A stretch of DNA of 64,000 nt. Source: Acidovorax radicis. Its GTDB lineage: Bacteria > Pseudomonadota > Gammaproteobacteria > Burkholderiales > Burkholderiaceae_C. The translations under genes and the position numbers were made by a program. A model generated the notes under the pieces. That model ran no database searches and was not told where the DNA came from. It saw nothing but the letters and a program-made list of their open reading frames with translations. Positions 22,305 to 32,458 of the stretch are shown one piece after another; positions within the stretch are counted from its first letter, which is position 1; each line of letters begins with the position of its first letter. The stretch spans positions 2,976,001 through 3,040,000 of the forward strand of contig NZ_CP075184.1 in NCBI RefSeq assembly GCF_020510705.1, read 5' to 3'.

Positions 22305-23378
22305 ATGGCCGGCCATCCCACCACATCCACCGCCCCACTGGCATCAGCGGGCACCCCCAGCCTGGTGGCGCTGGACTGGGGCACGAGTTCGTTGCGTGCC
22401 TTTTGCTTCGACGCTGGCGGCCAGGTGCTCGAGATGCGCCACCGTCCCTGGGGCATCATGCACCTGCCCCCTGCGCCGGACGGCGCACCCGACACAGTAC
22501 ACAGCGCTGCCTTCGAGCGCGCGTTGCACGACACCTGCGGTGACTGGCTCAGCACCACCCCGGCGCTGCCCCTGGTGGCCTGCGGCATGGTGGGCAGCGC
22601 ACAAGGCTGGAAAGAAGCGCCCTACCTGAACACCCCCACATCGCTCGACGACCTGGCGCGCAGCCTGACGGTGGTGCACCGCGGCACCGACAAGCCCTTG
22701 CACATCGTGCCCGGGCTGCTTCAGCGCGGCAGTCTGCCCAATGTGATGCGTGGCGAAGAAACCCAGGTGCTTGGCGTGCTGGCCGGTGGCCCCGCCACCG
22801 GCGATGCCTCTGTGCTGATCGGCCTGCCCGGCACCCACAGCAAATGGGTAACGGCAACAGCAGGCGCACAAGGGCGTTGCATCCAGCACTTTGATACGTT
22901 CATGACGGGGGAAGTGTTTGCAGCCTTGCGGGGCCACACCATCCTGGGCAAGACGATGCAAACCCCTGCAGCCCCGGACGACACCGCGTTTGCCCGCGGC
23001 CTGGCCGTGGCGCGGGGCGACGATGCGCAGCGGGGCCTGCTGTCGCACATCTTTAGCAGCCGCACGCTGGGCCTGACGGGGGCCCTGCCCGCATCGGCAC
23101 AGGCCGACTACCTGTCGGGCATTCTGATCGGCCACGAAATCAGTGCACTCGCCCCACTACTAACGCAAGGCCCCGCTGGCCGCCCTGCCACGGTGGTGCT
23201 GTGCGGCGAAAACGATCTGTGCCGGCGTTACGCCAAGGCGCTGCAGGCCTATGGTTTGCCCGCCCCCGTGATCGCCGAAAACGCCACGGCCCTCGGGCTG
23301 TGGCAGATCGCCTGTGCAGCCAGCCTCATCCCCCCTGTGGCACCCGCCACCGGGTCTGTCTCACCACGGAGCACTTGA
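22305..23378 (+). CDS. dgoK: 2-dehydro-3-deoxygalactonokinase
   Basis: 357-residue sugar-acid kinase of the DgoK family that phosphorylates 2-keto-3-deoxy-D-galactonate. The actin-like phosphate-binding start VALDWGTSSLRAFCFD lies near residue 21; PCGMVGSAQGW-like (here ACGMVGSAQGWKEAPYL near 88), GLPGTHSKWV near 178 and FDTFMTGEVFAALRG near 198 are DgoK features. It lies between the arabinonate branch and dgoA, 2 bp before the latter, and belongs to the De Ley-Doudoroff galactose route. Confidence 0.88.
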   Translation: MAGHPTTSTAPLASAGTPSLVALDWGTSSLRAFCFDAGGQVLEMRHRPWGIMHLPPAPDGAPDTVHSAAFERALHDTCGDWLSTTPALPLVACGMVGSAQGWKEAPYLNTPTSLDDLARSLTVVHRGTDKPLHIVPGLLQRGSLPNVMRGEETQVLGVLAGGPATGDASVLIGLPGTHSKWVTATAGAQGRCIQHFDTFMTGEVFAALRGHTILGKTMQTPAAPDDTAFARGLAVARGDDAQRGLLSHIFSSRTLGLTGALPASAQADYLSGILIGHEISALAPLLTQGPAGRPATVVLCGENDLCRRYAKALQAYGLPAPVIAENATALGLWQIACAASLIPPVAPATGSVSPRST

Positions 23379-23380
23379 AC

Positions 23381-24040
23381 ATGAACCCCATCGACAAAAG
23401 CCTCTTCAACACCATGCAGACCTGTGGGCTCATCGCCATCTTGCGCGGCGTGAAGCCCCATGAGGTGGTGGCCATTGGCCACGTGTTGTACGACGCGGGT
23501 TTTCGCATCATTGAAGTGCCACTGAACTCACCCGATCCGCTGGCCAGCATCCGCGCGCTGCGCGACGCGTTGCCCGCCGACTGCCTGGTGGGCGCGGGCA
23601 CCGTGCTTTCGGCGCAGGCGTGCGCCGACGTGGCGGCCGCAGGTGGGCAGATCATCGTCATGCCCCACAGCGATATCGACGTGATCCGCGCCGCCAGGGC
23701 GGCCGGCATGGCATGTGCCCCTGGCGTGGCCACGCTCACCGAAGCCTATGCAGCGCTGGCAGCGGGGGCCAACATACTCAAGCTGTTCCCCGCAGAAGCG
23801 CTGCCGCCCCACGTGCTCAAGGCCTGGCGTGCGGTGCTCACACCACCCATGGCCCTGGTGCCGGTGGGCGGCATCGTGCCCGAAAACATTGCCACCTATG
23901 CCGCCGCTGGGGCCAGTGGCTTTGGCCTGGGATCGGCCCTCTATCGGCCCGGCAACACGGCCACCGAGGTGGCCACCAAGGCCGCCCAATTCATGAAGGC
24001 CTGGCACGGCGCCTATGACGCGGTGCCCGCAGCCTCTTGA
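23381..24040 (+). CDS. dgoA: 2-dehydro-3-deoxy-6-phosphogalactonate aldolase
   Basis: 219-residue class I aldolase that splits KDPGal into pyruvate and glyceraldehyde 3-phosphate. The catalytic Glu is E45 in IIEVPLNSP and the Schiff-base lysine is K134 in NILKLFPAE; LNSP and LFPAE distinguish DgoA from the gluconate aldolase Eda. The ATG at 23381 follows CACGGAGCACTTGAAC and starts where family similarity begins. It lies between dgoK and dgoD with short gaps. Confidence 0.9.
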   Translation: MNPIDKSLFNTMQTCGLIAILRGVKPHEVVAIGHVLYDAGFRIIEVPLNSPDPLASIRALRDALPADCLVGAGTVLSAQACADVAAAGGQIIVMPHSDIDVIRAARAAGMACAPGVATLTEAYAALAAGANILKLFPAEALPPHVLKAWRAVLTPPMALVPVGGIVPENIATYAAAGASGFGLGSALYRPGNTATEVATKAAQFMKAWHGAYDAVPAAS

Positions 24041-24070
24041 TTTCTCACACTCTCCGACAAGTTTTCTCCC

Positions 24071-25219
24071 ATGAAGATCACACGACTGACAACGTTTCTG
24101 GTGCCGCCGCGCTGGTGCTTCCTCAAAATAGAAACAGACGAAGGCATCGTCGGCTGGGGAGAGCCCGTGCTGGAAGGCCGGGCAGAAACCGTGGCCGCTG
24201 CCGTGCAGGAGCTGGGCGACTACCTCATTGGCAAGGACCCGCGCCACATCGAAGACCACTGGACGGTGCTGTACCGGGGTGGCTTCTACCGGGGCGGCGG
24301 CATCCACATGAGCGCACTGGCTGGCATCGACCAGGCGCTGTGGGACATCAAGGGCAAGGCCCTGGGCGTGCCGGTGTCCGAACTGCTGGGCGGCAACGTG
24401 CGCGACCGCATCCGGGTCTATAGCTGGATTGGCGGCGACCGCCCCAACGAAACCGCGCAACAGGCCAAAGACGCGGTGGCGCGCGGCTTCACAGCGGTGA
24501 AGATGAACGGCACCGAAGAAATGCAGTATGTCGACACCTTCGACAAGGTGGAGCGCTGCCTGCAAAACGTCGCTGCCGTGCGCGAGGCCGTGGGCCCGCA
24601 TGTCGGCATTGGTGTGGACTTTCATGGGCGCGTGCACCGGCCCATGGCCAAGGTGCTGGTCAAAGAACTCGAGCCCTACCGGCTGATGTTCATCGAGGAG
24701 CCCGTGCTCAGCGAACACGACGAAGCCCTCAAGGAAATCGCGCGCATCACATCCACCCCCATCGCGCTGGGTGAACGCCTGTATTCACGGTGGGACTTCA
24801 AGCGTGTGCTGTCGCAAGGGTATGTGGACATTGTCCAGCCCGACCCATCCCACGCCGGTGGCATCACCGAGACGCGCAAGATCGCCACGATGGCGGAGGC
24901 CTATGACGTGGCACTGGCGCTGCATTGCCCCCTGGGGCCCATCGCACTGGCCGCCAATCTGCAACTCGATGCGGTTTGCTACAACGCCTTCATCCAGGAG
25001 CAGAGCCTGGGCATCCACTACAACGCGGACAACGATCTGCTGGACTACGTGTCCAACCCCGAGGTGTTTGCCTACCACGACGGCATGGTCGCGATCCCCA
25101 AGGGCCCCGGCCTGGGCATCGACGTCAACGAAGACCACGTGCGCGAGCGCGCCGCGCAGGGCCACCGCTGGCGCAACCCCATCTGGCGCCACCGCGACGG
25201 CAGCTTTGCCGAATGGTGA
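24071..25219 (+). CDS. dgoD: D-galactonate dehydratase
   Basis: 382-residue enolase-superfamily enzyme that converts D-galactonate to 2-keto-3-deoxy-galactonate. The metal ligands and catalytic residues D183, H185, E209, E235 and H285 fall at the numbers I recall for E. coli DgoD, within [21 protein letters not shown] and LHCPLGP. This strongly supports galactonate over other mandelate-racemase-group substrates. It is the last gene of the long plus-strand operon; an interspersed repeat follows. Confidence 0.93.
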
Positions 25220-25272
25220 CAGGGCGAACGTGTGCCTTGTGCCTTGTGCCCTGCTCCAGTCAGACTTCAATT

Positions 25273-25329
25273 GCTATTTATTTGATAGCTTCTAGCGCTT
25301 ACAAATAAAGCGCCAGAGGCCTATTTGGC
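25273..25329 (+). repeat. Interspersed Comamonadaceae-type repeat, copy 2
   Basis: TTTGATAGCTTCTAGCGCTT, then ACAAATAAAGCGCCAGAGGC: the two halves can pair as a hairpin around AGCGCTT and AAAGCGC. It sits just downstream of dgoD. Confidence 0.85.
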
Positions 25330-25554
25330 TTGATTTCATCGGGTTTCATCTGATGGGATGCCGGCGTCGGGCAAACCAGCCGCTCTGTGCTGCTCGCCAG
25401 GTTCTTGACGTCATCAAGAAAAATGGGCTAGACAAGCCTTTGTCCGACAACTTCGCCAACCCGTGGATGGCGCAGGGCGGGTGCATGGGGCTGAAAAATG
25501 GATTCAGCGAGCCACGCAATGGTTCGCGTGTTCACAGCACCCAAGGAGAGACTC
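25330..25554. other. Gap without a recognised gene
   Basis: Between copy 2 of the repeat and the glycine-zipper gene. A 72-codon frame (25353-25571, plus) exists but has no ribosome site, no recognisable family and runs into the next gene, so it is not called. The segment 25543-25550 holds the AAGGAGAG ribosome site of the next gene. Confidence 0.5.
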
Positions 25555-25941
25555 ATGAACCCCGTCCCTAGCCCATCCCCCCATACCGCCCCAGAGCCCC
25601 CCGTGGACGGCGACCTGGCCGAGCAGGCACTGCCCGGTCATGGTGTGCCGTCGCAAGACCCGGATCCCGCCGCCCAGCAGATGCTGACGCCCACGGAGTC
25701 TGAGCGCGAATCCAAAACGGCACTGATGGGCGGAGGAATGATGGCCGGTGCGGCAGCCGGTGCCGCTGTCGGCGTGGCGGTGGGCGGACCCGTGGGGGTG
25801 TTTATAGGCGGCACCGCTGGCGCCATCGCCGGCGCACTGGGGGGTGCGGCGGTGGGCCAGGTCGTAGAACCACAATCGCCAAGCAACCTGGCAGGCGAAG
25901 CCATGCAAGTCACGAAACCCGTGCTGGTGGAAAAAAGCTGA
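25555..25941 (+). CDS. Small glycine-zipper protein
   Basis: 128-residue protein of unknown function. Residues 1-58 are hydrophilic and proline-rich; residues 60-105 form an alternating Gly/Ala stretch (MMAGAAAGAAVGVAVG, then GGTAGAIAGALGGAAVG) typical of glycine-zipper membrane domains, ending VGQVVEP and a short tail. There is no signal peptide, so it is probably an inner-membrane or membrane-associated protein. The ATG at 25555 is set by AAGGAGAG five bases ahead. It stands alone between a sugar operon and the nuclease-helicase pair. Confidence 0.75.
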   Translation: MNPVPSPSPHTAPEPPVDGDLAEQALPGHGVPSQDPDPAAQQMLTPTESERESKTALMGGGMMAGAAAGAAVGVAVGGPVGVFIGGTAGAIAGALGGAAVGQVVEPQSPSNLAGEAMQVTKPVLVEKS

Positions 25942-26002
25942 GCCCCAGATTCGCGCCACTGCCGTCATTGAAGGATGGTGACGGCACCCACATCCATGCG
26001 CA

Positions 26003-26051
<49 letters not shown>

Positions 26052-26068
26052 GGCCGGTAGACACTACA

Positions 26069-26120
26069 TTTTTTATAGCTGTTAGCGCTTTATACATAAG
26101 CGCTAGAGGCCAATTTGGCG
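26069..26120 (+). repeat. Interspersed Comamonadaceae-type repeat, copy 3
   Basis: TTTTTTATAGCTGTTAGCGC, then TTTATACATAAGCGCTAGAG. It lies 17 bp after the 7-bp tandem array and upstream of the PD-(D/E)XK gene. Confidence 0.88.
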
Positions 26121-26232
26121 TCAAACTTTGGCCACTCGAGGGCCTAGAGAGCTTTGGCAACGACATGCCAGGGTGGCCCTGCGGGAACACTGGGATTAAA
26201 ATCAGTGCTTCACCCATCCCTTCGGCAGCTTC

Positions 26233-27189
26233 ATGTCGGCGCAGCCCTCTACCCCCCTGCCTCTTTCCCTTACCCTGACCCGCCCTCACCGCACGCGGCT
26301 GATGCAGATCTGGCGCTCGGCCGGGTGGCCGTGCAAGGATGGGCTGGAGGTGGACCTGCTGGCTGCCGGGTTGGTGGCACAGCACATCGCGCCCGAGGGG
26401 TGCGAGACGCTGCGACTGACCGACGAGGGCATTCGTACGCTTGCAGTGGCGCGCCAGCGCGGCGTGCGGGCACTGAGCGCACACGACCGCCTCGGCCAGA
26501 AGTTTGCCGGGCAGTTGCTGGGGGCGGGGCGCATTGTGTGGGCGGAGTTGTCGCTGCGCGCCGTGGTCGACACCGCCCCTACGCCTACGTCTATACCTGC
26601 CGCAGCGTCGCCCGCTGCGCACGTGGGCACCACACCCGCCATGCCCCCCCTGTGGAGCGATGACGACGGCACCCCCACCGCCCGCGCCGCTGCCCATGTG
26701 TGGCGCATGGCGCGGCCCGACCTTTTCTCGGTGCGCAACACCTCGGTGCCGGCTTACCTGCAACCCATGGTGCACGAGATCAAATACAGCCGGGCCGACC
26801 TGCTGTCAGACCTGCGGCACGACGCCAAGCGGCAGGCTTACCAGTGGTTGTGCGAGGAGTGTTATTACGTCTTCCCGGCGGGCATTGCCGAGCCCGATGA
26901 AATCCCCGAGCACTTTGGCATCTGGGTGCTGCATGGCGGCCTGGACGAAGGCCACTTTGAACTGTTGCGGCCCGCGCGCCACGCCCCTTGCACCCTGCCC
27001 TTTGCGGTATGGATGGCGCTGTGCAAAGCCACGCCGCTGCGCAGCGATGCGGACCTGGTGCAGGCGCAACTGGGCGAAACACCGCAGCCATCACCCGCAC
27101 CGTTGCCCCCCACAGCATTCCAGACCATAGAACAGGGTCCGCGCGGCGGCCAAGGCCCAGCCGCCGCTGAGGGTGCCGACGGCCCATGA
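26233..27189 (+). CDS. PD-(D/E)XK nuclease-like protein (MmcB-like), partner of the helicase
   Basis: 318-residue protein. The C-terminal half carries a PD-(D/E)XK nuclease core: RPDLF at 161-165 with D163, then HEIKYSRADL with E182 and K184, followed by KRQAYQWLCEECYYVFPAG and GIWVLHG. This pattern resembles MmcB-family DNA repair proteins. The N-terminal half (about 18-110) looks like a winged-helix DNA-binding domain (RTRLMQIWRSAGWPC, then LRLTDEGIRTLAVAR); a low-complexity linker at 112-150 joins them, and the tail after 275 is disordered. No strong ribosome site precedes the ATG, so the start is uncertain by some codons. Its stop overlaps the helicase start (ATGA). Nuclease activity is predicted, not shown. 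Confidence 0.7.
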   Translation: MSAQPSTPLPLSLTLTRPHRTRLMQIWRSAGWPCKDGLEVDLLAAGLVAQHIAPEGCETLRLTDEGIRTLAVARQRGVRALSAHDRLGQKFAGQLLGAGRIVWAELSLRAVVDTAPTPTSIPAAASPAAHVGTTPAMPPLWSDDDGTPTARAAAHVWRMARPDLFSVRNTSVPAYLQPMVHEIKYSRADLLSDLRHDAKRQAYQWLCEECYYVFPAGIAEPDEIPEHFGIWVLHGGLDEGHFELLRPARHAPCTLPFAVWMALCKATPLRSDADLVQAQLGETPQPSPAPLPPTAFQTIEQGPRGGQGPAAAEGADGP

Positions 27190-29558
27190 CCTACACCGTG
27201 GCCGTGCGTGAGCTGTGCGAGTTCACCGCCAAACAGGGCGACCTGGACCTGCGCTTTACCCCGGCACCCACGGCCCTGGAAGGCATGGCGGGCCACGGGG
27301 TGGTGGCGTCGCGCAGAGCCCCGGGCTACCGTGCAGAAGTGCCCCTGGCGGGGCGCTACAAAACGCTGCAGGTTCGGGGGCGGGCCGATGGTGTCGACCC
27401 CGCGCTTCAGCGGCTGGACGAGGTCAAGACCTTCAAGGGGCGGCTGGACCGCCAGCCAGCATCGCATCGGCACCTGCACTGGGCCCAGGCGCGCATCTAC
27501 GGCTGGCTGATGTGCCAGCAAGAGACGTGGAGCCACATCGACCTGGCCCTGGTCTATTTCGACATCGGCACGCAGCAAGAGACGGTGTTCACCGAGCGGC
27601 ACAGCGCTGCAGCGCTGTTGCAGCACTTTGAAGCCCTGTGCGAGCGGTTTCTGGCCTGGGCCGAAGCCCAGAGCGCACACCGCGCGGCGCGCGATGCGGC
27701 CCTCACGGCGCTGACATTTCCTTTTGGCGACTTTCGCGCCGGCCAGCGCGCCTTGGCACAGGCGGTTTACAGGGCCACCACATCGGGCCGCTGCCTGCTC
27801 GCCCAGGCGCCCACGGGCATCGGCAAGACCATGGGTACGCTGTTTCCGATGCTGAAGGCCGCGCCCGCACAACGGCTGGACAAGGTGTTCTTTTTGGCGG
27901 CCAAGACCTCGGGCAGGCAAACGGCACTGGACGCCCTGGCACGCCTGGGCCACACCAGCGCCGCCGCGCCCCTGCCCTTGCCCCTTCGGGTGCTGGAGCT
28001 GGTGGCGCGCGACAAGGCCTGCGAGCACCCCGACAAGGCGTGCCACGGCGCATCCTGCCCCCTGGCCCAGGGCTTTTACGACCGGCTTCCTGCCGCACGC
28101 GCCGCCGCGCTGCACGTCGCCGGCACGGCCACCAGCCCCCACACCGGCCTGGTGGCCCTGCACCAGCCCCAGGTGCGCGAGGTGGCACTGGCACACCAGG
28201 TGTGTCCCTATTACCTCAGCCAGGAACTCGCCCGCTGGGCCGACGTGGTGGTGGGCGACTACAACTACTACTTCGACATGGGCGGGCTGCTGCATGGCCT
28301 GACCCAGGCCAACCAGTGGCGCGTGGCACTGCTGGTGGACGAGGCCCACAACCTGGTCGAGCGTGGCCGCAAGATGTACACCGCCGAGCTGCGCCCCGAA
28401 AGCCTGGCGCAGGCGCGCAAATCCCCCACAGCACACGGTTATCCGGCCGTGAAAAAGGCGCTCGACAAGGTGCGCCGCCACTGGTCCGCGCTGGACAAGG
28501 CGCAGACCTCCGACTATGCGGTGCTGGAGACCTTGCCCGACAAACTGCTGGCGGCCCTGCAGCAATGTGGCAGCACGCTGTCGGACCACTTGGCCGAGCA
28601 CCCCACCGAGCCCGATGCGGCACTGCACAACTTTTATTTTGATGCGCTGCACATGCTTCGCATGGCAGAACTGCTCGATGACCATTCGCTGGTGGACCTC
28701 ACCCTGCCAGCCACGCACTCCCACCCCTATGGCAGCGGCCACAGCGGCAACGGCAGCGGCAGCACGACCACCAACGCCTCGACCAAGGGCGGTGCCTCCA
28801 CACTGTGTGTGCGCAATGTGGTGCCAGCGCCCTTCCTGCGGCCGCGCATGCTGGCGGCCCACACCTGCACGCTGTTCTCGGCCACGCTGCAACCCGCGCC
28901 CTATTACGCCGACTTGCTGGGCTTGCCCGAGAACCATGTGTGGGTGGATGTGCCAGCGCCTTTTGAGGCCGCGCAGTTGCAGGTGTCAGTGGCGCGCCAT
29001 ATCTCCACGCGCTACCCGCACCGCAAGGCATCGCTGGGCCCTATCGTCGAGTTGATGGCATCGCAGTTCCACACGCGGCCTGGCAACTACCTGGCGTTTT
29101 TCAGCAGCTACGACTATCTGCAGCAGGTGGCCGACCTGCTTGAACAGCGCTACCCGCAGTTGCCGCAGTGTCGCCAGTCGCGCCGCATGCTCGAAGCCGA
29201 GCAAAGGCAGTTTCTGGCGCGTTTTACCGACACCAGCCAAGGCATTGGTTTTGCGGTGTTGGGCGGCGCCTTTGCCGAGGGCATCGACCTGCCGGGCCAA
29301 CGCCTGACCGGCGCATTCCTGGCCACTCTGGGCCTGCCGCAGATCAACCCTGTGAACGAGCAAATCCGCCAGCGCATGCAGGCGATGTTCGGCGCCGGTT
29401 ATGACTACACCTATCTGTACCCCGGGCTGCAAAAGGTGGTGCAGGCGGCAGGCCGGGTGATCCGCACACCCCAAGACCAAGGGGTTGTGCACCTGATGGA
29501 CGACCGCTACGGCCAGGCACACATACAGGCGCTGCTGCCTGCATGGTGGGGGCTATGA
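27186..29558 (+). CDS. RecB-like nuclease fused to XPD/DinG-type Fe-S helicase
   Basis: 790-residue fusion. Residues 1-165 hold a RecB/Cas4-type nuclease: H37, GRADG with D68, DEVK with E79 and K81, and QARIY with Q101 and Y105. From about 180 an XPD/DinG superfamily 2 helicase follows: Walker A APTGIGKT (208-215), DEAH box VDEAHNL (384-390), motif V-like GAFAEGIDLPG and motif VI QAAGRVIR. Cysteines 279, 286, 291 and 340 lie between the Walker A and DEAH motifs, where XPD-type enzymes bind a 4Fe-4S cluster. It overlaps the preceding nuclease-like gene by 4 bp. A role in DNA repair or invader defence is plausible; the precise substrate is unknown. Confidence 0.82.
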   Translation: MTYTVAVRELCEFTAKQGDLDLRFTPAPTALEGMAGHGVVASRRAPGYRAEVPLAGRYKTLQVRGRADGVDPALQRLDEVKTFKGRLDRQPASHRHLHWAQARIYGWLMCQQETWSHIDLALVYFDIGTQQETVFTERHSAAALLQHFEALCERFLAWAEAQSAHRAARDAALTALTFPFGDFRAGQRALAQAVYRATTSGRCLLAQAPTGIGKTMGTLFPMLKAAPAQRLDKVFFLAAKTSGRQTALDALARLGHTSAAAPLPLPLRVLELVARDKACEHPDKACHGASCPLAQGFYDRLPAARAAALHVAGTATSPHTGLVALHQPQVREVALAHQVCPYYLSQELARWADVVVGDYNYYFDMGGLLHGLTQANQWRVALLVDEAHNLVERGRKMYTAELRPESLAQARKSPTAHGYPAVKKALDKVRRHWSALDKAQTSDYAVLETLPDKLLAALQQCGSTLSDHLAEHPTEPDAALHNFYFDALHMLRMAELLDDHSLVDLTLPATHSHPYGSGHSGNGSGSTTTNASTKGGASTLCVRNVVPAPFLRPRMLAAHTCTLFSATLQPAPYYADLLGLPENHVWVDVPAPFEAAQLQVSVARHISTRYPHRKASLGPIVELMASQFHTRPGNYLAFFSSYDYLQQVADLLEQRYPQLPQCRQSRRMLEAEQRQFLARFTDTSQGIGFAVLGGAFAEGIDLPGQRLTGAFLATLGLPQINPVNEQIRQRMQAMFGAGYDYTYLYPGLQKVVQAAGRVIRTPQDQGVVHLMDDRYGQAHIQALLPAWWGL

Positions 29559-29559
29559 C

Positions 29560-29598
29560 AAAAAAAACCCTGAACGCCCGCAAGCGGACGAACAGGGG
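29560..29598 (-). terminator. Rho-independent terminator for tctBA
   Basis: Read on the minus strand: CCCTG-TT-CGTCCGC-TT-GCGGGCG-TT-CAGGG followed by eight T. The stem has twelve pairs with one TT/TT internal loop. It lies about 65 bp past the tctA stop and 2 bp beyond the end of the convergent helicase gene, which it may also shield. Confidence 0.85.
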
Positions 29599-29662
29599 TC
29601 GGCATGACGGACGGGGCCTGAACCCATGGCGCAACCCGCAGGCCACGCCAGTCCACACCACA

Positions 29663-31189
29663 TCACGTACTTGCGTGTGCGACTTCTGCCGGGGGCTGCG
29701 GCAGCGGGGCCGCTTTGCCGCGCTTCATGAAGAACGAAAGCACCTGCCAGCCGATGAACAACGCAATCAGCCCCAACAGGGTGCCGCTGATGGGCCGGTT
29801 CACAAACACGCTGAAACTGCCGCGCGACAACAGCATGCTGCGGCGGAAGTTTTCCTCGAGCATGGGGCCCAGGATAAAGCCCAGCATCAGCGGCGATGGG
29901 TCCAGCTCCAGCCGCAAGAACAGATAGCCGAGCGCGCCAAACGCGACCGTGATGAAAACGTCATCGAGGTTGTTGTTGATGCTGTAGGTGCCGATGCAGC
30001 AAAAGAACAAAATCGCCGGGAACAACACGTTGTACGGAATCTTGAAAACCGACAACCAGTAGCGCACCAGTGGCACGTTCAAGATCAGCAAGAAGCAGTT
30101 GCCGATCCACATGCTGGCCACCAGGCCCCAGAACAACTCAGGGTGGCCCGAGATCATGTTGGGGCCGGGCTGAATGCCCTTGATGATGAAGGCGGCCATC
30201 ATGAGCGCCATCACAGCGTTTTCGGGGATACCGATGCTCATCAGCGGAATGAAGCTGGTGCGCGCGGCGGCCTCGTCAGCGGCGGCCTGGCCGGCCACAC
30301 CTTCGATACAGCCGGTGCCGATTTCGTGCTTGTACTTGCTGACTTTCTTGTCGAGCGCATAGGCTGCAAACTGGGCAATCACCGGGCCGCCGCCGGGCAA
30401 AATGCCCAGCACCGAGCCCACCACGCTGCCACGCAACGCGCTGGGGATAATGCGCTTGAACTCGGGCCAGGTGGGCATCAGCTTGATCTTGCCGTTGAAC
30501 GGAGAGCGCTCTTCGCGCGAATCCAGGTTCTTGGTGATTTCTGCAATACCAAAACACCCCAGCGCAATGCTCACGATGCCCACGCCATCGGCCAAAAAGG
30601 GCATGTCAAACGTGAAGCGCGCCAGACCACTGTTGACGTCGGTGCCCACCGAGCCCAGCAAGATGCCGATCATGCACATGGCCAGGCCGTTGAGCAGGCT
30701 GCCCGTGGTAACAAAACTCACGCACACAAAACCCACCAGCATCAACGCGCAGTAGTCGGCCGGGCCAAACAGAAAGGCCACTTCACCCAGCTTGGGCGCA
30801 AAAAACGCCAGCACCACAATCGCCACCGTGCCACCAATGAAGCTGGAGACGCCTGCGGTAAATAGCGCAAGCCCCGTTTTCCCCTTCAAGGTCATCTGGT
30901 AGCCATCGATACACGCCACGATGCTGCTGGCGTGCGGGATCTTCATGGTGATCGCGCTCACGCTGTCACCATATTGCGCGCCGTAGTAAATACCGGCCAG
31001 CATGATCAGTGCGCCGGTGGTGTCCATCGAGTAAGTCAGTGGCAGCAACAAGCTGATGGTGGCCAGTGGCCCCAAGCCCGGCAACAAGCCGACCAAGGTG
31101 CCGACCGTGCAGCCCATGGCGCAATACATCAGGTTTTGCAGCGTCAGCGCGTGGCTGAAACCGAAGGCGAGGTTGTTTAAGACGTCCAT
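29663..31189 (-). CDS. tctA: Tripartite tricarboxylate transporter large permease, TctA family
   Basis: 508-residue inner-membrane permease of the TTT family with about eleven or twelve membrane segments. Family features are GTLVGLLPGLGPLATISLLLP near residue 30, QYGDSVSAI near 73 and GILPGGGPVIAQF near 270. The start at 31189 (MDVLNNLAFG) is where family similarity begins; the frame extends 57 bp further without it. It follows tctB by 7 bp. No periplasmic TctC-type receptor is encoded nearby, so the solute cannot be inferred beyond a carboxylate, and citrate is only the classic example. Confidence 0.9.
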   Translation of the reverse strand: MDVLNNLAFGFSHALTLQNLMYCAMGCTVGTLVGLLPGLGPLATISLLLPLTYSMDTTGALIMLAGIYYGAQYGDSVSAITMKIPHASSIVACIDGYQMTLKGKTGLALFTAGVSSFIGGTVAIVVLAFFAPKLGEVAFLFGPADYCALMLVGFVCVSFVTTGSLLNGLAMCMIGILLGSVGTDVNSGLARFTFDMPFLADGVGIVSIALGCFGIAEITKNLDSREERSPFNGKIKLMPTWPEFKRIIPSALRGSVVGSVLGILPGGGPVIAQFAAYALDKKVSKYKHEIGTGCIEGVAGQAAADEAAARTSFIPLMSIGIPENAVMALMMAAFIIKGIQPGPNMISGHPELFWGLVASMWIGNCFLLILNVPLVRYWLSVFKIPYNVLFPAILFFCCIGTYSINNNLDDVFITVAFGALGYLFLRLELDPSPLMLGFILGPMLEENFRRSMLLSRGSFSVFVNRPISGTLLGLIALFIGWQVLSFFMKRGKAAPLPQPPAEVAHAST

Positions 31190-31196
31190 AGCGATC

Positions 31197-31619
31197 TCAG
31201 AACAGGGGAAGGTTGACGCCCAGAATCTTCTGGAACCCGAAAGCAATGGCCAGCAACACGGCGGCGATTTTTATGTTGCGCACCACGGAGTAGGACGTGC
31301 CGGCAAACCCCGAGCAAAACACCAGCACCACAATGCCCAGGGCCATGTTCACAAAGTGCGAGGCCAGCGCAAAGCCGCACAGGCTGCCCAGGATGACCGC
31401 GATGTTGCGAAACTGGAAGTTCATCGCAACCGGTGCCACCAGCCGGGCACGCACCACCGTGATGACCCCGATCACAAACAGCATGCAGCTGACCATGAAC
31501 GGGAACAGCCCCGGCCCCGCGTGACTGAGCGCCCCCAGCGAATAATTCACCGACGGCAGGCCAAAAGCCAGCGCCAGCGCCATGAGGACAAGGCCTCTGA
31601 GAATGTTGCGATTGATCAT
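31197..31619 (-). CDS. tctB: Tripartite tricarboxylate transporter small permease, TctB family
   Basis: 140-residue protein with four predicted membrane segments and the usual spacing of the TctB family (AFGLPSVNYSLGALSHAGPG near residue 16). The start at 31619 is set by AGGAG upstream (minus strand); the frame continues 252 bp further but overlaps the regulator promoter. It forms the membrane complex with TctA. The divergent tctD-tctE regulators begin 143 bp away. Confidence 0.86.
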   Translation of the reverse strand: MINRNILRGLVLMALALAFGLPSVNYSLGALSHAGPGLFPFMVSCMLFVIGVITVVRARLVAPVAMNFQFRNIAVILGSLCGFALASHFVNMALGIVVLVFCSGFAGTSYSVVRNIKIAAVLLAIAFGFQKILGVNLPLF

Positions 31620-31762
31620 GAAAACACGGTCTCCTGAAGACTTTTTGGATCGTTCCCATGCCCGCAGGTGGCGCCTGTGGCTGGGGTATGCTGACCCGGC
31701 AACTATTCCCATCGAACCTGAGCGCTGGCTGACCTGGCCTATGCGTATTTCCACGTAAACCC

Positions 31763-32458
31763 ATGCGATTACTCCTGGTGGAAGACGACCCCGTCCTGAG
31801 CCGAACCATGGCCCAAGGGCTTGAAACTGCGGGCCACCGCGTCGAAGTGGCCCGCACCGTGCAAGAGGCACAACACTGGTGGGCGGTGCACACCTTTGAT
31901 GCCGTGCTGCTCGACCTGAACCTGCCCCACGGGTCAGAGCCCCGCAGCGGCCTGGGCAGCGGGCTGACCGCGTTGCGCGGCGCGCGCGCGCGCGGCGACC
32001 GCACGCCGGTGCTGGTGCTCAGCGCGCGTGACAGCACCGAGGACCGGATCGCCGGGCTGGACGCGGGCGCCGACGACTACCTGGGCAAACCATATGAGCT
32101 CAAAGAAATCGAAGCCCGGCTGCGCGCGCTGATGCGGCGCGCCAGCGGCACGGCTGACCTTGTCACCGTGGGTCAACTGGCGCTGGACCGGCTGGCACGC
32201 CGCTACAGCGTGGCGGGCCAACCGCTGGAGCTGCCCGCTCGCGAGTTCGACCTGCTTTGGGAGCTGATGACCCCACCTGGCAGGGTGCTCAGCAAACGTG
32301 ACCTGTCAGACCGCCTGTCGGATGCGGGCGAGGCGCTGGGCGAAAACGCGCTCGAGGCGTTTGTCTCGCGTCTGCGGCGCAAGCTCACGGGCAGCGGGGC
32401 GTCCATTCGCACACTGCGCGGGCTCGGCTACATGCTGCAGGACGATGTCAGCCAATAA
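31763..32458 (+). CDS. tctD: OmpR-type response regulator, TctD-like
   Basis: 231-residue regulator with an N-terminal receiver (acidic D8/D9, phospho-acceptor D51 in LLDLNLP, K109) and a C-terminal winged helix (RVLSKRDLSDRLSD, then NALEAFVSRLRRKL). An insertion of about ten residues (HGSEPRSGLGSG, 56-67) follows the phosphorylated strand and is not usual for the family. It is divergent from tctB-tctA and overlaps the kinase gene by 14 bp, so it very likely controls the transporter in response to its substrate. Confidence 0.88.
   Translation: MRLLLVEDDPVLSRTMAQGLETAGHRVEVARTVQEAQHWWAVHTFDAVLLDLNLPHGSEPRSGLGSGLTALRGARARGDRTPVLVLSARDSTEDRIAGLDAGADDYLGKPYELKEIEARLRALMRRASGTADLVTVGQLALDRLARRYSVAGQPLELPAREFDLLWELMTPPGRVLSKRDLSDRLSDAGEALGENALEAFVSRLRRKLTGSGASIRTLRGLGYMLQDDVSQ

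Follow-up and report, generated by a model that had tools for sequence, protein, structure and literature searches.

A 64,000-nucleotide stretch of the Acidovorax radicis genome (contig NZ_CP075184.1, positions 2,976,001 to 3,040,000; hereafter the window, whose own numbering is used for all coordinates) carries two overlapping genes on the plus strand, here called open reading frame 1 (ORF1; 26233..27189, 318 amino acids) and ORF2 (27186..29558, 790 amino acids). ORF1 encodes a probable winged helix followed by an MmcB-like PD-(D/E)XK nuclease, and ORF2 a predicted RecB/Cas4-type nuclease fused to an iron-sulfur (Fe-S) helicase of the XPD family. These genes form a conserved set that most likely works as a repair module; the new point is that beside the same helicase gene an MmcB-like nuclease replaces FAN1. 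We consider it probable that the module is SOS-induced and serves the repair of branched or crosslinked DNA, with ORF2 as helicase-nuclease and ORF1 as incision nuclease. A literature search of the open library yielded no recognisable account of a FAN1-helicase operon or of this MmcB-helicase pair. An earlier note on this DNA had described two nuclease sites served by one helicase and proposed an uncharacterised end-processing or defence complex; its observation was confirmed and its interpretation was borne out in part.

The survey of the helicase gene's partners covered 250 genomes from the family to which the window belongs, with thresholds that were unequal across the three protein families (ORF2, E 1e-60; ORF1 profile, E 0.001; FAN1-type VRR_NUC, E <1e-30). 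ORF2 was found in 102 genomes, ORF1 in 129 and FAN1 in 7. Among the 102 genomes with ORF2, 92 have ORF1, 7 have FAN1, three have neither (G107, G518 and G441) and none has both; rare co-occurrence, which the earlier note had named as a refutation of its view, is thus contradicted, and direct adjacency, with ORF1 immediately upstream of ORF2, is seen in just 38 of the 92. Two weak ORF1 matches (G382 and G440) could not be placed by the survey, and locus L154 puts that of G440 upstream of ORF2 too. In 7/7 cases FAN1 immediately precedes ORF2 in the same orientation. At the genus level, 59 of the 66 genera with ORF2 have ORF1 and the other 7 have FAN1; ORF1 is present in 19 of the 75 genera that lack ORF2. 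From these counts it can be concluded that ORF2 is hardly ever without a partner nuclease, and that ORF1 is able to exist on its own. That none of the 7 FAN1 genomes has ORF1 gives a p value of 0.006 in the 250 genomes and of 6.5e-9 within the 102 with ORF2, both uncorrected for relatedness; five further genomes with weak VRR matches (7e-8 to 5e-4), three of which have ORF1, were not counted as FAN1. When 39 genomes (the 37 with ORF1 only, plus those of loci L033 and L038) were searched again for ORF2 at E 1e-15, 38 gave none and G306 (locus L240) showed a remnant: 61 N-terminal residues of ORF2 (66% identity) right after a retained ORF1, in a frame that continues into unrelated sequence. Six genera mix ORF2-positive and ORF1-only members. 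The largest recurrent clusters among the neighbours of unlinked ORF1 genes include reading frames that overlap ORF1.

The same arrangement was observed outside the family. Of 274 genomes sampled across the class, 6 have ORF2, namely that of the window, the family member G107 (with neither partner) and four from outside the family, all four with FAN1 directly upstream. FAN1 itself (E 1e-10) occurs in 12/274, and an ORF2-like gene follows it in 6 of the 12 and, weakly, in a seventh. VRR_NUC was present in all three FAN1 neighbours that were scanned, accompanied by FANC_SAP and FAN1_HTH in one, by FANC_SAP alone in another and by FAN1_HTH below the cut-off in the third, and a profile of six FAN1 proteins encoded next to ORF2 matches solved FAN1 chains. 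In a Burkholderia stagnalis record, a VRR-type gene, recognised by motif, also lies directly upstream of ORF2.

Human FAN1 is a nuclease that aids the removal of DNA crosslinks. Like ORF1, FAN1 sits immediately before this helicase gene and is a PD-(D/E)XK nuclease, one that has been tied to crosslink repair; no sequence relation between the two is detectable (hhalign, 0.1%). The FAN1-type assignment of ORF1 itself was rejected on the same value, together with the lack of any VRR_NUC, FAN1_HTH or FANC_SAP match in the domain scan; the window's own genome has no VRR_NUC match at E up to 1. In eukaryotes, an Fe-S helicase, FANCJ, and a structure-specific nuclease, FAN1, take part in crosslink repair, and in plants FANCJB and FAN1 belong to a single pathway (PMC6550410). 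The likeness to the bacterial pair is one of analogy: unlike FANCJ, ORF2 has a nuclease of its own, and it is no closer to FANCJ than to XPD. We advance tentatively the idea of a bacterial FANCJ-FAN1 counterpart with an interchangeable nuclease slot. One Fe-S helicase-nuclease would require a second nuclease for incision, and within the window's family the slot would hold either FAN1 or an MmcB-like enzyme with no detectable likeness to it in sequence, the two never occurring together in the 250 genomes; ORF1 would then be a non-orthologous replacement of FAN1.

In ORF1, the probable winged helix spans 26308..26472 and the PD-(D/E)XK domain 26473..26985, with the codons of D163 at 26719-26721, E182 at 26776-26778 and K184 at 26782-26784. 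The predicted structure shows the PD-(D/E)XK fold that the earlier note had suggested, and the active-site residues are intact. The start at 26233 is favoured over the database start, which gives 295 amino acids, because the segment TRxHRTRL, which precedes the ATG at 26302, is conserved among ORF1 relatives. Among 37 relatives in named genomes, the closest are from Acidovorax, and those of Paracidovorax, Curvibacter and Roseateles are more distant. The fold, the order of the motifs and a detectable profile homology place ORF1 in the wider MmcB-like superfamily, which includes MmcB (PF06319), a DNA-repair endonuclease of Caulobacter crescentus. Unlike MmcB, ORF1 has no match to PF06319 (E up to 1), carries the additional N-terminal probable winged helix, pairs with a helicase and contains in its core a longer stretch predicted with low confidence. 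A narrow ORF1 profile found no match in the PDB; with a wider one, 3dnx ranked first (E 0.021). Distant ORF1-like proteins are also carried by 17 plasmid records (e.g. NC_010679.1), of which 13 are from Burkholderia and 13 were typed as conjugative; the ten rows seen have 27-28% identity and are mostly annotated as 'hypothetical protein'. Locus L043 encodes a distant MmcB-like protein beside another gene, which we take to resemble those of phage Gp37/Gp68-type proteins.

The start of ORF2 overlaps the stop of ORF1 by 4 base pairs (ATGA, 27186..27189, plus strand), an overlap found in 27 of 35 linked loci of the Acidovorax group (ATGA in 25, GTGA in 2). The N-terminal part of ORF2 (27186..27680) is, by sequence, a RecB/Cas4-type PD-(D/E)XK nuclease with the motif H...D...ExK...QxxxY: D68 (27387-27389), E79 (27420-27422), K81 (27426-27428) and the Q101 and Y105 of QxxxY (27486-27500) are present in 107/107 sequences and H37 in 98/107. 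PDDEXK_1 matches 6 of 29 ORF2-family sequences scanned (best E 7.1e-7), the window's protein being unmatched; the N-terminal profile reaches 4ic1, presumably a Cas4, at E 0.0056. The C-terminal part contains DEAD_2 and Helicase_C_2 in the domain scan, the latter at residues 628-788 (29067..29549; PF13307, E 3.1e-38), along with a conserved Walker A motif (TGIGKT, residues 210-215, 27813..27830), a DEAH box (residues 385-388, 28338..28349) invariant in 107/107 sequences, and four cysteines in the Fe-S position (C279, C286, C291 and C340; 28020..28205), likewise in 107/107, that would hold an Fe-S cluster. These features place ORF2 in the XPD/DinG superfamily of Fe-S helicases and, with the nuclease sites of both proteins (by predicted fold in ORF1 and by sequence evidence in ORF2), agree with the two sites and the one helicase that had been described before. 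Across both its nuclease and its helicase parts (residues 5-501 and 561-788), ORF2 matches the solved chain 9kqh ('DNA 5'-3' helicase') at E 8.3e-105, and its N-terminal profile alone does so at 2.8e-39. DinG and YoaA are also Fe-S XPD-family helicases, and ORF2 was rejected as either: it scores 88.4 bits against the DinG equivalog NF008729, far below the cut-offs of 598 for DinG and 680 for YoaA, and by NCBI cut-offs the same genome encodes DinG (782 bits) and YoaA elsewhere. Full-length relatives of ORF2 with about 32% identity are present in Listeria and Enterococcus (L244 and L245), two annotated records in which no adjacent partner nuclease is annotated; relatives with 28-36% identity occur in records filed as phages.

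Upstream of the two genes, 25 base pairs 5' of the ORF1 ATG, lies a LexA-like (SOS) operator, CACTGGGATTAAAATCAGTG (26188..26207). This element (CTGG-N9-CAG) was first spotted by eye and tested afterwards, with the box defined as CTG-N10-CAG with an A+T-rich centre and Markov-resampled upstream regions as control. ORF1 genes with scores of at least 320 bits gave 64 distinct upstream regions, the window's included and a few of them from genomes without ORF2. The box was present in 58 of the 64 (control mean 0.96, maximum 3); its median starting point is 85 bases upstream of the first modelled ORF1 residue. In the window's genome, lexA is preceded by the boxes TACTGGATTAAAAAACAGTT and AACTGGTGAAAAATACAGCT, and recA by CACTGTTGTTAATAACAGTT; compared with the window's box they show 6 to 9 mismatches in 20 positions, so that the resemblance lies in the form. 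The exact pattern CTGT-N8-ACAG is absent from the window, and the DNA of the box has no more than ordinary hairpin potential. Where ORF2 does not directly follow ORF1 or FAN1, the box precedes it in 12/54 cases with ORF1 elsewhere and in 0/3 partnerless ones; it precedes 2 of the 9 FAN1 frames recognised in the 19 loci supplied. Judged by its sequence, the element is a LexA-type operator to which LexA would bind and from which the genes would be induced by DNA damage. Two LexA-regulated genes of Pseudomonas aeruginosa, PA1044-PA1045, appear in PMC12796719; at first they looked like a homologous pair, and they are not relied on here.

Several observations weigh against the SOS-induced repair module. 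Most ORF1 genes below 320 bits have no box (7 of 57 upstream regions positive), and the window's own box is atypical, with CTGG where 55 of the 58 have CTGT and TCAG where 49 of the 58 have ACAG. A helix glutamate is common among PD-(D/E)XK enzymes, and this residue, E82, is a glutamate in only 91 of 142 sequences. As many as 45 of the 92 co-occurring pairs lie far apart and 7 more lie within 10 kb in other than operon order, so a fixed ORF1-ORF2 complex is not required; likewise, 37 of the 129 genomes with ORF1 have no ORF2, which indicates that ORF1 also works without it. ORF2 is partnerless in the three genomes mentioned above; within 3 kb of it, neither partner is present in a Cupriavidus record or, going by the annotation, in two records from Firmicutes. 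The co-occurrence counts are not corrected for the species tree, and the approximately unbiased (AU) test does not reject a single clade of FAN1-linked ORF2 (p 0.70 and 0.74), so that one event may account for the alternation. Several independent partner swaps are for this reason not claimed, although the FAN1 label has to change 4 times on the FastTree topology. Finally, the loss of FAN1 and FANCJ in chicken cells is synergistic, as cited in PMC6550410. The unlinked pairs, the genomes with ORF1 only and the single clade would all suit a pair of SOS genes with a common operator but separate actions, their co-occurrence reflecting shared ancestry and the FAN1-ORF2 cassette being an unrelated mobile version. 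We regard this as improbable, given that none of the 66 genera has ORF2 without ORF1 or FAN1, the three single genomes notwithstanding, while no more than 19 of the 75 ORF2-free genera have ORF1.

The repair-module reading is preferred because the MmcB-like and the FAN1 partners have both been linked to crosslink repair in print, and because of the single pathway of plant FANCJB and FAN1. According to a review (PMC9578287, through which the MmcB study, Lopes-Kulishev 2015, is cited), Caulobacter MmcB is an SOS gene that protects from mitomycin C and cisplatin; the term 'uncharacterised' in the earlier note is therefore to be qualified, given that ORF1 has this relative in its wider superfamily. 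PMC4103454 presents FAN1 as a nuclease that acts on flaps in crosslink repair and states that VRR-Nuc proteins standing alone act on junctions, so the parallel with FAN1 need not mean crosslinks. This last statement, together with the RecB/Cas4-type sequence of the ORF2 nuclease and the fact that SOS control suits any damage, speaks for a general SOS pair, not aimed at crosslinks, for end processing or recombination at double-strand breaks or gaps, in which ORF1 would cut the flaps or junctions of recombination intermediates. The computed results do not separate these substrates; the published links of both alternating partners to crosslink repair make the general pair the unlikely, though credible, choice.

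A defence role, as suggested in the earlier note, is not supported. An anti-phage or anti-plasmid pair, perhaps akin to CasDinG of type IV CRISPR systems, could be suspected from the match of the PADLOC model PDLC01439 (typeIV_DinG) to ORF2 at 2e-116; this match is limited to residues 176-787, which belong to the helicase. Of the 8 neighbours tested, none, the nearest on each side included, has a PADLOC match (E 0.001) or is a type IV cas gene by PADLOC, with about 31.3-37.7 kb falling outside the scan. The pair sits on a 5.0-Mb contig among metabolic-looking neighbours, ORF2 is present in 102 of the 250 family genomes, and the pair has an SOS-type box. Among 72,556 plasmid records, 10 carry a relative of ORF2 (E 1e-50); among 50,697 phage records, 16 do (E 1e-20). 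The alternation with FAN1 also indicates DNA repair rather than defence, which we deem very improbable.

For the SOS-induced repair module, the following order of steps is proposed. DNA damage would lift LexA repression at 26188-26207 and the operon would be transcribed. ORF2 would load on single-stranded DNA at a stalled fork, a flap or a crosslink and move 5' to 3', like XPD-family helicases, while its RecB/Cas4-type nuclease would trim strands. ORF1, which might contact ORF2 physically, would bind branched duplex by way of its winged helix, and incision by ORF1 would open or unhook the lesion; ORF1 would in this way take over the work that FAN1 may do beside the same helicase in related bacteria.

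Around the operon, one neighbour gene has an MR_MLE match in the domain scan, and we take the remaining ones, from their sequences, to be genes of sugar-acid metabolism and a transporter gene. Upstream of the operon, at 25498-25941, a small alanine/glycine-rich protein is encoded, with weak glycine-zipper matches that are all under the cut-off; short tandem GCTGAGC-like repeat units lie between this gene and the operon, at about 26003-26052. No Rfam match was found across 23000-32000.

To our knowledge, little has been mapped of bacterial interstrand-crosslink repair beyond the classical routes of UvrABC and recombination, and most work on bacterial FAN1 has been done in vitro. A mutant-fitness survey by Price et al. 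2018 reportedly includes cisplatin data, and public fitness data exist for Acidovorax sp. GW101-3H11, in which both ORF1 and ORF2 are present at locus L026. The alternation of ORF1 with FAN1 points to a candidate helicase partner for bacterial FAN1, and offers a candidate pathway for the 'hypothetical proteins' encoded beside 'ATP-dependent DNA helicase' genes. It also provides a testable case in which one nuclease may substitute for another within the same machine.

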